64,000 nt of DNA from an uncultured Chitinophaga sp. (GTDB taxonomy: Bacteria; Bacteroidota; Bacteroidia; Cytophagales; Cyclobacteriaceae): contig CABHOK010000018.1 in assembly GCA_902168205.1 (NCBI GenBank), positions 124,001 through 188,000 of the forward strand. The letters are read 5' to 3'. Numbering within the stretch: position 1 is the first letter of the stretch; each line of letters opens with the position of its first letter. Below the pieces are notes generated by a model that saw only the letters and a program-made list of their open reading frames with translations, ran no database searches and was not told the DNA's origin. Below, piece after piece: positions 42,384-47,216 of this stretch. Made by a program: the position numbers and the translations under genes.

Positions 42384-42422
42384 ATATGTATAGATGTTAA
42401 AGTAATGATGCAGTAAATTTAG

Positions 42423-42484
42423 TAGTTAATCGGTAGCCGTTATCAGTTAACGTTAATGGTTATCTGTTATTCGTTATCCGTAAA
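42423..42484. repeat. Family A repeat cluster
   Basis: TAGCCGTTATCAGTTAACGT, TAATGGTTATCTGTTATTCG, TTATCCGTAAAG: consecutive approximations of GTTATCCGTTA, upstream of the aromatic operon and of the divergent lipoprotein gene. Confidence 0.6.
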
Positions 42485-42533
42485 GTATACATGCCAACAG
42501 AGATTTCATTAAGTATTATATTATAAGGCCGCT

Positions 42534-42580
42534 ACAATCTTGTAATCTTATAATTTTTCAATCTTGCAATTTTTGAATCC
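42534..42580. repeat. Family G repeat (AATCTTATAATTTTTCAATC)
   Basis: TACAATCTTGTAATCTTATA followed by TTTTTCAATCTTGCAATTTT; resembles 36387-36426. Confidence 0.45.
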
Positions 42581-42646
42581 TCCCGTAACTTGCTGACTAA
42601 CAATCATTAGTTCTAATAAATTTTCGAAAAAAGATTTAACGGTTGC

Positions 42647-42678
42647 TTGGAACTCCCCAAAAAATGATTTTATCTTTG
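42647..42678 (+). promoter_or_regulatory. Bacteroidota-type promoter of the aromatic operon
   Basis: TTG (42647-42649), a 21-nt spacer and TATCTTTG (42671-42678), which matches TAnnTTTG exactly. Transcription would start near 42684, leaving about 15 nt before the leader ATG. Confidence 0.75.
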
Positions 42679-42698
42679 GATCACAACAAGAGATACAA

Positions 42699-42761
42699 AT
42701 GAACGCAAATACCTTCTTTTACTTTTACTACTATTTTTTTAGACCCAAGACGGGACTCTAA
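42699..42761 (+). CDS. Phe/Tyr leader peptide of the pheA operon
   Basis: A 20-codon ORF (ATG AAC GCA AAT ACC, then nine consecutive aromatic codons FFYFYYYFF, then RPKTGL and TAA). Five Phe and four Tyr codons in a row are far beyond chance. The position fits a ribosome-mediated attenuation leader: promoter upstream, intrinsic terminator and pheA downstream. Codons 6-14 (42714-42740) are the control codons. The stop codon at 42759-42761 is directly beside CGGGACT, the candidate antiterminator arm. The peptide itself probably has no function. Confidence 0.9.
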   Translation: MNANTFFYFYYYFFRPKTGL

Positions 42762-42829
42762 GAGTGGTGTGTTGTTAAGAAGGATAACAGATAAACTCAG
42801 AAAAGTCCCGGCAAAACCGGGACTTTTTT
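42751..42829 (+). promoter_or_regulatory. Attenuator: terminator with competing antiterminator
   Basis: Terminator: AAAAGTCCCGG (42801-42811) pairs perfectly with CCGGGACTTTT (42817-42827) over a CAAAA loop and ends in a T-run. Antiterminator: CGGGACT (42751-42757), overlapping the end of the leader ORF, is exactly complementary to AGTCCCG (42804-42810) in the 5' terminator arm. A ribosome at the leader stop codon would mask CGGGACT and allow termination. A ribosome stalled on early Phe/Tyr codons would leave it free to antiterminate. Confidence 0.85.
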
Positions 42830-42851
42830 GCTTATAGAGACTTTTGGAAAA

Positions 42852-43694
42852 ATGGCGAAGAAGAAAAAATTAAAGATTGCAATTCAGGGTATCGCTACCA
42901 GCTTTCACGAAGTGGCTGCTCTTACCTATTTCAACGAACCGATTGAAACAGTAGAGTGTCTTTCGTTTCATCAGCTCTGCGAAAGCTTAAAGAATGGCGC
43001 CAGCGATTACGCTGTTATGGCAATAGAAAATTCGATTGCCGGAAGTATCTTACCTAACTACTTTCTGCTACAGGATTATCACTTTAATATAATAGGTGAA
43101 TTATACCTTCCGATTCACATGAATCTGCTGGTGTTACCCGGAACAAAAATTACCGATATAAAAACCATCGAGTCGCACCCGATGGCTATACGCCAGTGCT
43201 CGGAATTTTTACATTCTCTCAATGGTGTAGAGATTCGCGAAAGCGATGACACAGCGCTCTCTGCCAAACGGGTAAAAGAACTTAAACTCAAAAACACAGC
43301 GGCTATAGCAAATGAGTTTGCTGCGAAGAAATATGGTTTAACCATTCTCGAAAAACGAATTGAGACGCACAAGAAAAACTTTACACGCTTCCTCGTATTG
43401 GCGAAACGCAGCAACGGTAAAATTGAAAGTAATAAAGCTTCGTTGTGTTTTGAAGTAGCCAACGAAGTAGGAAGTCTGGCAGATGCACTGATGACTTTCA
43501 AGACCAACAGCATCAACTTAACAAAGATCCAATCTATACCGATCATCGGCAGACCAAGCGAATACTCCATACACATCGATGTAGAATGGAAAAGACGCAA
43601 GAACTACGACACTGCTATGCAGGAGATTATACGGCAAGTGAAGAATCTCAATGTGCTGGGAGAGTATAAGAAGGCGAAGATTGAGTATAGATAA
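42852..43694 (+). CDS. pheA: Prephenate dehydratase
   Basis: 280 residues from ATG 42852; the frame extends to the terminator T-run but has no earlier ATG. Monofunctional type. The PDT domain (~5-190) has IAIQGIATSFHEVAAL, YAVMAIENSIAGSI, IESHPMAIRQCSEFL and the catalytic NFTRFLVLAK (TRF motif). A C-terminal ACT domain (~200-278) contains EVGSLADALMTFKTNSINLTKIQSIPIIGRPSEY, in which the usual ESRP is GRPS, so Phe feedback may differ. It converts prephenate to phenylpyruvate. First structural gene after the attenuator. Confidence 0.96.
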   Translation: MAKKKKLKIAIQGIATSFHEVAALTYFNEPIETVECLSFHQLCESLKNGASDYAVMAIENSIAGSILPNYFLLQDYHFNIIGELYLPIHMNLLVLPGTKITDIKTIESHPMAIRQCSEFLHSLNGVEIRESDDTALSAKRVKELKLKNTAAIANEFAAKKYGLTILEKRIETHKKNFTRFLVLAKRSNGKIESNKASLCFEVANEVGSLADALMTFKTNSINLTKIQSIPIIGRPSEYSIHIDVEWKRRKNYDTAMQEIIRQVKNLNVLGEYKKAKIEYR

Positions 43695-43880
43695 AGTCGG
43701 GAAGAGCGAAAGACGGGAAGTCGGAAAGACGAATGCAGAACCGGAGTGAAATATATAGAATAATTAAAATATAGGTATAGGTAGTAAGGAAATTAGAAGA
43801 TGAACGAACCGGGAAGGTCTAAATGGTAACAAACCTTGAAACAACTTTCCGACTTCCGGACTCTTTAACTTTCGGACCCT
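43695..43880. repeat. Family B repeats inside the aromatic operon
   Basis: GGAAGTCGGAAAG (43716-43728) and CTTTCCGACTTCC (43845-43857) are an exact 13-nt inverted pair. Further units (AGTCGGGAAGAGCGAAAG, GGACTCTTTAACTTTCGGAC) flank them. The pair lies between pheA and the aminotransferase and is transcribed with both. Confidence 0.7.
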
Positions 43881-43954
43881 CTCAGAAAAAGATAGAAGCA
43901 TCAAGCCGTACGTACTACAAAAACAACTTTCTGTCTTCACAAAGAATAAGGAAC

Positions 43955-45151
43955 ATGATAAAAACAGCTAACAGAATCGCCAACGTTGAAGAATATTACT
44001 TCAGTAGAAAACTTGCTGAGGTGAGAGGATTGGATACACCAGAGTTGCGTGTTATCAACCTCGGTATAGGTAGTCCGGATCAGGCGCCATCGTCTAATGC
44101 TATAGATGCATTGATCGCGTCTGCGAAAAATCCGGCTAACCACGGCTACCAGAACTATAAAGGTATACCGGCATTCAGAAAAGCGATCGCTGATTTTTAC
44201 AAGACTACTTATAATACTTCAATCGATCCGGAGACCATGATCCTTCCGCTGATGGGATCGAAAGAAGGTATCATGCACATCGCCATGGCATTTGTAAATG
44301 AAGGTGAAGAAGTATTGATACCAAATCCCGGCTATCCTACGTATTCATCAGTAGCAAATTTAGTGGGTGCTAAACTTCGTCCGTACGATCTGCGCGAAGA
44401 CCTCAACTGGGGCATTGATATAGCAGCTCTGAAGAAAAGCGATCTCTCGAAAGTAAAGATCATGTGGGTAAATTTCCCGCACATGCCAACGGGTAGAGTA
44501 GCAACACGGGCTGAATTAAAGGAGCTCGTAGATCTGGCGCGTGAACACCAGTTCCTCATTGTAAATGATAACCCTTATAGTTTAGTGCTCAATGAAAATC
44601 CCATGAGTATACTTTCGATAGAAGGTGCTGATGAAGTGGCGTTGGAACTGAACTCCCTGAGTAAATCGCACAACATGGCAGGCTGGCGCCTTGGTTGGGT
44701 AGCTGGTAAAAAAGAATTTATCGATGCTGTGCTCAAGGTAAAAAGCAACATGGATTCAGGGATGTTTCTCGGCTTGCAGCATGCCGCTACGGAAGCATTG
44801 AATAATGGCAAAGAATGGTTTACATCATTGAATAAAGTATATGCTGAACGTAAAGAAGTTGCCAGGCAAATACTCGATGTACTCGGATGCACGTACTCAA
44901 ACGATCAGTCAGGATTGTTTGTGTGGGCAAAGGCTCCTGCGCATATAGCAGATGTTGAGAAGTGGATTGACGAAATCCTGTATGGAACAAAAGTATTCAT
45001 CACACCGGGTTTCATCTTTGGTGAAGGCGGCAGAAGATATATACGTATATCACTTTGCTGCACGGTTGAATCTCTGAACCAGGCGCTGAACCGGATCAAT
45101 GAATTTTTGAAAAAGTCGCCAGCAGAAAAACTGTCTGCGGCAAAAGCATAG
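43955..45151 (+). CDS. PLP aminotransferase for aromatic amino acids (class I)
   Basis: 398 residues from ATG 43955 (MIKTANRIANVEEYYFS). The longer frame from 43823 reads through repeat DNA, which decides the start. Fold-type I aminotransferase: INLGIGSPDQAPS, NHGYQNYKGIPAFRKAIADFY, PNPGYPTYSSVANLVGA, VNFPHMPTGRVA, and the PLP lysine Lys237 in NSLSKSHNMAGWRLGWVAG. From its operon position it should transaminate phenylpyruvate and 4-hydroxyphenylpyruvate (or prephenate to arogenate); similarity alone only places it near LL-DAP/alanine-type enzymes. Confidence 0.92.
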   Translation: MIKTANRIANVEEYYFSRKLAEVRGLDTPELRVINLGIGSPDQAPSSNAIDALIASAKNPANHGYQNYKGIPAFRKAIADFYKTTYNTSIDPETMILPLMGSKEGIMHIAMAFVNEGEEVLIPNPGYPTYSSVANLVGAKLRPYDLREDLNWGIDIAALKKSDLSKVKIMWVNFPHMPTGRVATRAELKELVDLAREHQFLIVNDNPYSLVLNENPMSILSIEGADEVALELNSLSKSHNMAGWRLGWVAGKKEFIDAVLKVKSNMDSGMFLGLQHAATEALNNGKEWFTSLNKVYAERKEVARQILDVLGCTYSNDQSGLFVWAKAPAHIADVEKWIDEILYGTKVFITPGFIFGEGGRRYIRISLCCTVESLNQALNRINEFLKKSPAEKLSAAKA

Positions 45152-45154
45152 TAT

Positions 45155-46075
45155 ATGAAAGTTACAGTTATAGGTTTGGGATTGATCGGAGGCTCCATCG
45201 CGATAGACTTGCGCAAGGCAGGTGTTGCTACGGAGTTAACCGGTGTTGACCTGAATGCTGAACACGGCCAGAAAGCAGTAGCCCTGGGGTTGGTTGACAA
45301 AGTGGAGACGGAGGATAAAGCACTGCAAAACGCTGATATCGTTATCCTCGCTATACCGGTTAACGCCATGTGCCAGTTGTTGCCTTCGTTACTGGATGCC
45401 GTTAAATCTACAGCTGTAGTGATCGATACCGGGTCAACCAAGAATCTCATTTGTCGCTCGGTAGCCAATCATCCGAAACGTGAGCAACTGGTAGCGGCAC
45501 ACCCGATCGCGGGTACTGAGAACTCCGGACCGGAAGCTGCCTTCAGCGGGTTGTTCCGTAACAAGACCAACATCATCTGCGAAAAAGAAAGATCATCCGA
45601 TCATTCATTGGAAGTTTCCATGCGTGTATTCAATGCGTTGGGTCTGCGTACCATCTTTATGGAACCGGAAGAGCACGATAAACACGTAGCGTATGTATCG
45701 CACTTGTCGCACGTGAGTTCGTTCCTGCTCGGACAAACTGTATTGGACATTGAGAAGGACGAGAAAAATATATTCGCCCTGGCAGGCAGCGGTTTTGCAT
45801 CGACTGTTCGTCTCGCGAAGAGCTCTCCTGAAATGTGGGCACCCATCTTTGAACAGAACCTTGAATATCTCAGTCAGGCATTGCTGGAGTATATCATGCA
45901 CCTGCAGCGGTTCCACTACTACCTGATGAAGCGCGACATAAAAGAACTCAATCGCATTATGTCGAGCGCCAACGAAATACGCAGGGTGCTCGATGGTATA
46001 GAGCTGAAAACAAAAAGTCAGCAAAGTGAAACACATATCATCGAGCCTAACAACAACGGATCAACTAAAAATTAA
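45155..46075 (+). CDS. tyrA: Prephenate dehydrogenase
   Basis: 306 residues. NAD(P)-binding start VTVIGLGLIGGSIAIDLRKAG; the prephenate domain shows VIDTGSTKNLICRSV, LVAAHPIAGTENSGPEAAFSGLFRNKTNIIC with His and Ser/Thr ligands, HDKHVAYVSHLSHVSSFLLG, and the helical dimer domain. It converts prephenate to 4-hydroxyphenylpyruvate for tyrosine. No ACT or chorismate mutase domain is fused. It starts 3 nt after the aminotransferase stop. Arogenate specificity cannot be excluded. Confidence 0.96.
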   Translation: MKVTVIGLGLIGGSIAIDLRKAGVATELTGVDLNAEHGQKAVALGLVDKVETEDKALQNADIVILAIPVNAMCQLLPSLLDAVKSTAVVIDTGSTKNLICRSVANHPKREQLVAAHPIAGTENSGPEAAFSGLFRNKTNIICEKERSSDHSLEVSMRVFNALGLRTIFMEPEEHDKHVAYVSHLSHVSSFLLGQTVLDIEKDEKNIFALAGSGFASTVRLAKSSPEMWAPIFEQNLEYLSQALLEYIMHLQRFHYYLMKRDIKELNRIMSSANEIRRVLDGIELKTKSQQSETHIIEPNNNGSTKN

Positions 46076-46112: not shown

Positions 46113-47216
46113 ATGAAACACTCTTTGAAACTCGAATCAATCTCTTCATGGTTACCAACCGCCAGCAAGCCTGTTATTATCAGCGGCCCTTGCAGTGCAG
46201 AAACCGAAGAGCAAACAGTAGCAACAGCAAAACAATTAGCAGCTACCGGTAAGGTGCATGCATTGCGCGCAGGTATCTGGAAACCACGTACAAGACCTGG
46301 TCAGTACGAAGGTTCCGGTGAAGAAGGATTGAAGTGGCTGGCACAAGCCAAGAAAGAAACAGGCTTACCAATCACTACCGAGGTAGCAAACGCAGCACAC
46401 GTAGAAGCAGCATTGAAAGCAGGTGTAGATATACTTTGGATCGGTGCCCGCACAACGGTAAACCCGTTCTCGGTACAAGAGGTTGCAGACTCTTTGAAAG
46501 GTGTAGATATACCGGTAATGGTAAAGAACCCGATCAACCCGGATCTTGAACTTTGGATCGGTGCCCTTGAGCGTCTTAACAAAGCAGGTATTACCAAGAT
46601 GGCAGCTATACACCGCGGATTCTCTTCATTCGAAAAAGGTCCGTTCCGTAACGCTCCGATGTGGGACATGGGCATTGAACTGAAAACCCGTATTCCTGAA
46701 TTGGACATCATCTGTGATCCTAGTCACATCGCAGGTAACCGCGAACTCATTGCATTGATCTCTCAAAAAGCACTTGACCTTGATATGGCTGGTTTAATGA
46801 TCGAAAGTCATATTAACCCGGATGCTGCATGGAGCGATGCGAAACAACAAGTGACACCTTCTGTGCTGGGTAAAATTGTGGAAGGCCTGGTGGTGCGTAC
46901 CGTTTCTTCTGACAACAAAACATTCAAAGATACCCTGAGTGTATTGCGTGAACAGATCGACCATTTAGATGATGAGATCATGTCGAAGCTTGCGTCTCGC
47001 ATGAAGATCTCCGAGAAAATAGGACAGTATAAAAAGGACAACAACGTTACGATCCTGCAGGTAAACCGCTGGGAAGAGATCATTCAAACCCGCATTACAC
47101 TTGGTAAGGCAATGGGACTGAATGAACAATTTACAAGCGAACTGTTGAAATTGATCCACAATGAATCGATCCAGATTCAGACAAAAGTGATGAACAAAGT
47201 AGAAGAGCGCGTTTAG
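46113..47216 (+). CDS. Bifunctional DAHP synthase / chorismate mutase
   Basis: 367 residues. N-terminal type I-beta DAHP synthase (~1-265): SKPVIISGPCSAETEEQ, ALRAGIWKPRTRPGQYEGSGEEGLKWL, DILWIGARTTVNPFSVQ, VKNPINPD, CDPSHIAGNRELI. C-terminal AroQ chorismate mutase (~270-367): LREQIDHLDDEIMSKLASRMKISEKIGQYKK with the catalytic Arg/Lys/Glu helix. Fusing the first enzyme of the shikimate pathway with the branch-point mutase lets chorismate or prephenate control carbon entry. Last gene of the Phe/Tyr operon. Confidence 0.95.
   Translation: MKHSLKLESISSWLPTASKPVIISGPCSAETEEQTVATAKQLAATGKVHALRAGIWKPRTRPGQYEGSGEEGLKWLAQAKKETGLPITTEVANAAHVEAALKAGVDILWIGARTTVNPFSVQEVADSLKGVDIPVMVKNPINPDLELWIGALERLNKAGITKMAAIHRGFSSFEKGPFRNAPMWDMGIELKTRIPELDIICDPSHIAGNRELIALISQKALDLDMAGLMIESHINPDAAWSDAKQQVTPSVLGKIVEGLVVRTVSSDNKTFKDTLSVLREQIDHLDDEIMSKLASRMKISEKIGQYKKDNNVTILQVNRWEEIIQTRITLGKAMGLNEQFTSELLKLIHNESIQIQTKVMNKVEERV

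Follow-up and report, generated by a model that had tools for sequence, protein, structure and literature searches.

The window, a 64,000-nt stretch of DNA, comes from the 7.3 Mb genome of a soil bacterium close to Ohtaekwangia: its pheA is 95% identical to that of O. koreensis and 98% identical, over 247 residues, to that of another locus, L042. Pfam matches identify an operon for Phe and Tyr biosynthesis (Table 1), and directly upstream of it lies a compact leader. A short open reading frame (ORF), predicted to be translated, carries a run of codons for the operon's own products, and between this ORF and the first gene lies a terminator, as predicted from structure and conservation. The sequence-only reading had listed a promoter, a 20-codon ORF, a nine-codon aromatic run, the arm CGGGACT and a terminator, and a base-for-base reading found each of them in place. 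As a separate observation, pheA and the aminotransferase gene are 260 nt apart (43695-43954), and in relatives this distance is 5-264 nt from the last sense codon, mostly below 65 nt (77 loci); a second promoter or an insertion could lie there.

Table 1. Leader elements and operon genes, in window coordinates
Feature	Position	Strand	Basis and details
Promoter, Bacteroidota-type (predicted): TTG, N21, TATCTTTG (TAnnTTTG -7 box)	42647..42678	+	Sequence reading; TTG 42647-42649, then N21, then TATCTTTG 42671-42678
Leader ORF, 20 codons, MNANTFFYFYYYFFRPKTGL	42699..42761	+	Sequence, counterpart in relatives; ATG 42699, stop TAA 42759-42761
Sensor, nine consecutive Phe/Tyr codons	42714..42740	+	Codon-run count
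CCC, arm 1 of small conserved hairpin with GGG 42752-42754	42744..42746	+	Relatives' spacers, alignment
Antiterminator arm CGGGACT, within 3' end of leader ORF	42751..42757	+	Sequence, complement to AGTCCCG, conservation
Linker hairpin, GAGT 42762-42765 with ACTC 42795-42798 plus inner stem; juxtaposes antiterminator arms	42762..42798	+	Predicted folding
Intrinsic terminator (predicted)	42804..42829	+	5' arm AGTCCCGG 42804-42811, loop CAAAA, 3' arm CCGGGACT 42817-42824, T-run to 42829
pheA, prephenate dehydratase	42852..43694	+	PF00800 4.7e-58
Aminotransferase class I/II	43955..45151	+	Pfam
tyrA, prephenate dehydrogenase	45155..46075	+	Pfam
DAHP synthase fused to chorismate mutase	46113..47216	+	Pfam

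We compared the leader with chance expectation. The window contains a single nine-codon TWY run, and none of 100 dinucleotide shuffles has one. An eight-codon run gave four matches at three sites in the 7.3 Mb genome, against one for the reversed-pattern control; the sites were the pheA leader (two overlapping matches) and two others, whose surroundings, judged by eye, do not have this layout. With its A/U pairs the terminator stem extends over 42798-42830 and folds at -21.6 kcal/mol (z -6.4), as well as none of 200 shuffles. A simple terminator scan of 42400-43000 returned no terminators, probably because the long A:T-extended stem consumes the T run. A sigma-70-hexamer promoter scan of the same interval returned one promoter-like site, not at the leader promoter, probably because it seeks sigma-70 hexamers and not the Bacteroidota type. 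An exact TAnnTTTG was present within 60 nt upstream in 14 of 78 leaders examined, in 11 of those 14 at -25 to -28.

Relatives were taken from one pattern-based scan of a species-level genome collection, from which we used the best 80 of 82 pheA loci. Loci L003-L010, which come from the same genomes as contig loci, were excluded before counting. Of the 80, L106 was also excluded because its contig begins inside pheA; the other 79 extend upstream of the gene. In 78 of these 79 (best 80 of 82) an aromatic leader ORF occurs together with a terminator and with an arm that can pair as CGGGACT does with AGTCCCG; the sole exception, L108, had no leader. In a search for ATG starts only, no leader was found within 450 nt upstream of pheA in L108 (and its copy L011), L012, L014 or L016; pheA is 41-52% identical in L012, L014 and L016. 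Loci L017-L031 resemble chorismate mutase-prephenate dehydratase fusions and are uninformative about a leader, because the DNA upstream of them is coding. The four operon genes stood in the same order in 71 of the 80 loci (again the best 80 of 82), the other nine being without one or more of them in the available stretch.

For quantitative comparison, the 78 loci (76 contig loci, the window and L013) were merged where identical over the first 40 nt past the run, giving 69 distinct loci. L075 and L078 were excluded from the alignment as an identical stretch, and L015, L079 and L109 were left out of both the alignment and the 69-locus tables. Runs were 6-9 aromatic residues long in the 69 loci, with Phe, Tyr or Trp at 539 of 554 run codons, and by eye the alignment shows run length varying chiefly in whole codons. 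Three of the 78 leaders start with TTG or GTG. Phe and Tyr both occurred near the end of the run in 89.9% of cases, compared with 77.6% in permuted runs, which is suggestive only of both being favoured there. Two side observations concern the run itself. Trp accounts for 17 of the 554 run codons, in keeping with an operon that ends in a gene supplying all three aromatic amino acids. One-base deletions occur in the run of three loci assembled from metagenomes (L059, L062 and L088), either assembly errors or decayed leaders.

In 47 of 69 loci the last aromatic codon is separated from the first G of the arm by 11 nt, and in 64 the spacing is 9-12 nt; the letters of this spacer vary. E. coli toeprints show that a bacterial ribosome shields about 15 nt on the 3' side of the first base in its P site. 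Using this footprint, we folded at equilibrium the RNA left free by the ribosome, taking the transcript as far as the last base of the 5' terminator arm. With codon 14 in the A site, the E. coli footprint puts the leading edge at 42750, and the arm begins at 42751. In the window, the equilibrium probability of the antiterminator was 1.00 at every aromatic codon; it dropped to 0.32 at codon 15 and was 0.00 for codon 16 and beyond. Across the loci, with the 5' terminator arm out, the mean fell from 0.98 when the A site holds the last aromatic codon to 0.32 one codon on and 0.02 two codons on; the value exceeded 0.5 in 69, 8 and 1 of 69 loci, respectively. Lengthening the edge by 1, 2 or 3 nt left the arm free at the last codon in 64, 55 or 8 of 69 loci, and shortening it by 1 or 2 nt freed the next codon in 55 or 64. 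At the last-but-one aromatic codon the arm was free in all 69 at all six edges tried. In these models the switch point falls no more than about one codon from where the run ends, and the antiterminator is computed to be free solely during the ribosome's stay on the sensing codons, a result obtained with the E. coli footprint and good to about one codon.

These computations run against the earlier proposal that stalls at codons 13-14 would partly mask the arm, so that the first aromatic codons matter most. With the E. coli footprint the arm was free at the last codon in all 69 loci; masking fails for codon 13 and holds for codon 14 only with a longer footprint, and in the window model the antiterminator persists longer during late stalls than during early ones. 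When the 3' terminator arm has emerged as well, the antiterminator probability is 0.00 for codons 1-21, and at equilibrium the terminator wins at any ribosome position. The switch must therefore be kinetic, with the antiterminator forming first.

The arm occupies all three reading frames of the leader (50, 11 and 8 of the 69 loci). On a pheA tree built by a quick method, with 14 of 66 inner branches starred, the frame of the arm changes at least nine times, although two of these changes (L059 and L088) may be one-base assembly deletions, and the stop position switches between near and far at least eight times. An arm found in three frames is therefore kept as RNA and not as peptide. We rejected the possibility that the leader peptide is kept for its own C-terminal sequence, since the frame shifts while the RNA arm stays.

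Complementarity of the arm scored 20.3 on average in the 69 distinct loci, compared with 11.2 (sd 2.6) for shuffled flanks. In a 76-sequence MAFFT alignment, the terminator together with the CCC:GGG hairpin was paired in 97.8% of cells and showed 54 two-sided changes, versus 10.5 in shuffles. The antiterminator together with the GAGT:ACTC helix was paired in 84.6% of cells, versus at most 53.9% in slid controls, with a covariation score of 0.141 versus at most 0.089; its two-sided changes (22 cells) were not above those of the slid controls (up to 26) in this alignment. The GAGT:ACTC linker helix was paired in 71.1% of cells. Evidence for the antiterminator is thus mostly conservation, because the core of the arm is nearly invariant. 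The type of the 5' terminator arm changed three times on the pheA tree, and there the antiterminator arm carries the change. Among independent pairs, only two supported ones show co-change and two more have no terminator-arm difference (p 0.5, underpowered). In a swap test, own arms scored 20.34, same-class swaps 20.53 and arms of other classes 17.34; in the 23 minority-type loci the own arm was better than the commonest in 8, equal in 5 and worse in 10, so that no locus-specific matching was found. Covariation of the switching arm is weak evidence. Of what the sequence-only reading had expected relatives to keep, the run, the terminator and the complement are thus retained, but the expected covariation of the arms is faint.

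That reading had also placed the leader stop codon beside the switching arm, which is true of the window but of only 30 of the 69 loci, where the stop lies within 8 nt past the arm. In these 30 a terminating ribosome would cover the arm, with a modelled antiterminator probability of 0.00. In 38 loci the stop is 13-22 nt past the arm, and the model lets the antiterminator re-form behind the stop ribosome, with a probability of 0.93. Masking alone therefore leaves the OFF state unexplained in far-stop loci, and timing or the small hairpin must help. The remaining locus, with a shifted frame, has its stop 80 nt off.

Leader-peptide attenuation is a textbook kind of control. On the anatomy and conservation described above, the pheA leader is very probably a ribosome-mediated attenuator of the pheA-aminotransferase-tyrA-DAHP synthase/chorismate mutase operon, with Phe-tRNA and Tyr-tRNA as the signals sensed; both the mode of control and the sensing of Phe and Tyr had been proposed earlier, and both are supported. 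The switching steps are those computed by equilibrium folding with the E. coli footprint. Bacteroidota start translation largely without Shine-Dalgarno sequences. RNA polymerase would initiate some 15-20 nt upstream of the leader ATG, and translation of the leader would begin with no Shine-Dalgarno sequence. When either Phe or Tyr runs short, the ribosome would linger on one of the nine sensor codons, with its edge at about 42750 at most; CGGGACT, left free, would pair with AGTCCCG, and this antiterminator would delay the terminator so that the operon is read. If Phe and Tyr are both plentiful, the ribosome should clear the run, cover the arm within a codon or two and sit there at the stop. 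With the arm covered, the terminator 5' arm would pair with its 3' arm, and the transcript would presumably end at about 145 nt. The CCC after the run would form a weak helix with the arm's GGG, and probably reduces leakage while the arm is free of ribosomes.

This CCC lies about four bases before the GGG. At least two of the three Gs find partners in the spacer in 66 of 69 loci, and in 56 all of them do, versus 61% and 33% under synonymous recoding and 71.5% and 39% under shuffling. In 59 of 69 loci the second codon past the run encodes Ser, Ala, Thr or Pro and has C in the middle, a bias that points to selection at the RNA level. RNAalifold picks CCC:GGG unprompted, with pairing in 95.6% of cells. 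The hairpin is nonetheless weak, with a mean of -3.7 kcal/mol versus -19.2 for the antiterminator fold. The claim that only two alternative structures are used therefore needs amending: a third is kept in nearly all loci, but at equilibrium it loses to the antiterminator. A downstream GAGT pairing with the arm was considered as a general pre-emptor and rejected, being inconsistent and averaging -2.2 kcal/mol.

How the attenuator is set may be read in two ways. One reading, less likely than not, is a default-ON attenuator set by a ruler: the resting leader would read through, and only a ribosome that has passed approximately the last aromatic codon would cover the arm and turn the operon OFF, first during translation and then from the stop codon beside the arm. 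If this is true, an untranslated leader would leave the operon ON, opposite to what superattenuation does in E. coli trp, and relatives would reach the same end by a stop 13-22 nt on or by two switches in series.

Alternatively, and in our judgement doubtfully, the classical three-hairpin logic dominates, in which CCC:GGG is the decisive pre-emptor and a stalled ribosome acts mainly by covering CCC. Only the last few aromatic codons would then induce, and an untranslated leader would be shut off (superattenuation). The retention of CCC:GGG beyond synonymous expectation and its unprompted recovery speak for this logic, as does the window model, in which, with the ribosome at codon 6 or 8, the hairpin keeps the arm paired (0.85-0.99) up to the emergence of the 5' terminator arm and then yields to the antiterminator. 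It also returns sooner after stalls at codons 6 and 8 than at codons 12 and 14, with the antiterminator at 0.34 versus 0.99 at position 42821. The trpE leader of the same genome, moreover, has a strong hairpin of this type. Weighing against it are the weakness of CCC:GGG noted above and the model without a ribosome, in which the antiterminator still reaches 0.84-0.99 in the window and exceeds 0.5 in 49 of 69 loci. Spacer folds amount to just 0.0 to -1.8 kcal/mol in seven loci that belong to other families and have their stop on the arm (L126, L128, L130-L133 and L136). Beyond the window's relatives, the CCC hairpin has a patchy distribution: of 15 loci, five have folds of about -3 to -4.5 kcal/mol and the rest -1.8 or weaker, except L138, whose -4.3 fold is a different one. 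Because of this patchiness we do not offer the hairpin as universal.

Two further explanations would replace attenuation altogether. A terminator that is constitutive or controlled by a protein, with the aromatic ORF as a by-product, is very improbable, given that ORF, spacing and complement are kept together in all but one of the 79 loci and that the arm persists across three frames. A T-box or other ligand-binding riboswitch would suit a position before an amino-acid operon with a terminator, but it is hardly credible, as no such family is among the five Rfam matches up to E 1 in 42400-43000 and a leader of about 145 nt, 63 of them ORF, would leave little room for a T-box. In that interval no Rfam family reached its cut-off; the five matches were SpF25, Phe_leader, Thr_leader, RsmY and MIR8024 (minus strand). 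Phe_leader (RF01859) scored 27.3 bits against a curated cut-off of 55, which places the leader outside that family, and the absence of T-box from matches up to E 1 likewise gives no grounds for membership.

We built a covariance model from the pheA leaders and ran it on 345 sampled genomes of the class (E<=0.01). It matched 60 genomes, the window's own included and false matches among them. Of 29 loci fetched besides that of the window, 24 had aromatic leaders by eye (20 before pheA and 4 before DAHP synthase) and 5 were unrelated terminators. The four leaders that precede DAHP synthase rather than pheA are L137, L138, L146 and L147; in L137 and L138 the arm pair is GAATCGG:CCGATTC, with other letters that are still complementary. 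A Hymenobacter-like family (the name is a guess), searched with its own pheA, matched in 21 of 31 genomes, and an aromatic leader was present in 20 of 20 loci read besides L015. Two Phe/Tyr leaders stand in series upstream of pheA in L015 (genome G036), L157, L158, L159 and L175. In the latter four, a terminator was detected after the first leader in all four and after the second in three; in L015 the second terminator was detected and the first was seen by eye. We know of no tandem attenuators that sense the same amino-acid pair twice. Tandem attenuators as such are described for Salmonella mgtCBR (PMC3641672).

The genome of the window (G000) holds other candidate leaders. A Trp leader, MIQFNNIAWWWHISKLDM (WWW; L154, contig 2), starts about 220 nt before a trpE domain match and is accompanied by a terminator; it has a strong pre-emptor hairpin, and its stop lies inside the likely antiterminator arm, as judged by eye. 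A His leader, MNNNITSGLHHHHHGNNTMRGTAF (five His; L153, contig 3, minus strand), is followed by a terminator and lies before hisG, with a switching arm identified by eye. A branched-chain leader ending LVIIVSILLVKPAGAIVV (L114, contig 18) lies about 10.5 kb left of the window start; it has the run-CCC-GGG-terminator layout, with the switching arm judged by eye, before an ilvE-like ORF, likewise named by eye, and matches the pheA model at E 0.089.

The pheA leader belongs to a known kind, with a distinctive layout. The E. coli pheA (pheL) attenuator likewise has a Phe-rich leader peptide, a terminator and an antiterminator before pheA. In contrast to E. coli pheA and RF01859, our leader combines Phe and Tyr codons in a single run, places the arm within the last part of the ORF and has a very small pre-emptor hairpin. 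The Salmonella his model of Elf and Ehrenberg assumes that a stall on any of several consecutive regulatory codons is antiterminating and proposes an extra hairpin that reduces basal read-through (PMC1183508). Our leader resembles it in its consecutive sensing codons and extra hairpin, which here is 3-4 bp and overlaps the antiterminator arm. Within the same phylum, sections of a 2021 study of Flavobacterium psychrophilum give strong clues for leader-peptide attenuation before amino-acid operons, report conserved structured 5' elements without Rfam hits before pheA and hisG, and mention the absence of Shine-Dalgarno sequences (PMC9723704). These elements concern the same genes, and the likeness is one of gene placement; the section on the pheA element gives no sequence or mechanism. 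Leader-peptide attenuators of amino-acid genes outside Proteobacteria are described for Actinobacteria (PMC1262725), a different phylum, and are likened here by kind. A Bacteroides map includes short ORFs resembling attenuator leader peptides (PMC7366714). The authors of a 2010 survey of premature terminators state that they knew of no leader-peptide system beyond Proteobacteria and Actinobacteria, ermC aside, before their own Firmicutes case (PMC2965389). In the literature searched, mostly the main texts of open-access papers, we found no sequence-level description of the pheA leader; the 2010 comparative attenuation study of Lopatovskaya and colleagues may already list Bacteroidota cases.

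Attenuation requires that the leading ribosome follow close behind RNA polymerase. A pheA attenuator conserved in many genomes of the class hence implies that ribosome-polymerase coupling is good enough there for a race of a few codons, and the pheA leader is a ready reporter for testing such coupling. The leader alignment also yields an RNA model, absent from Rfam 15, that finds the leaders of aromatic operons across the class.
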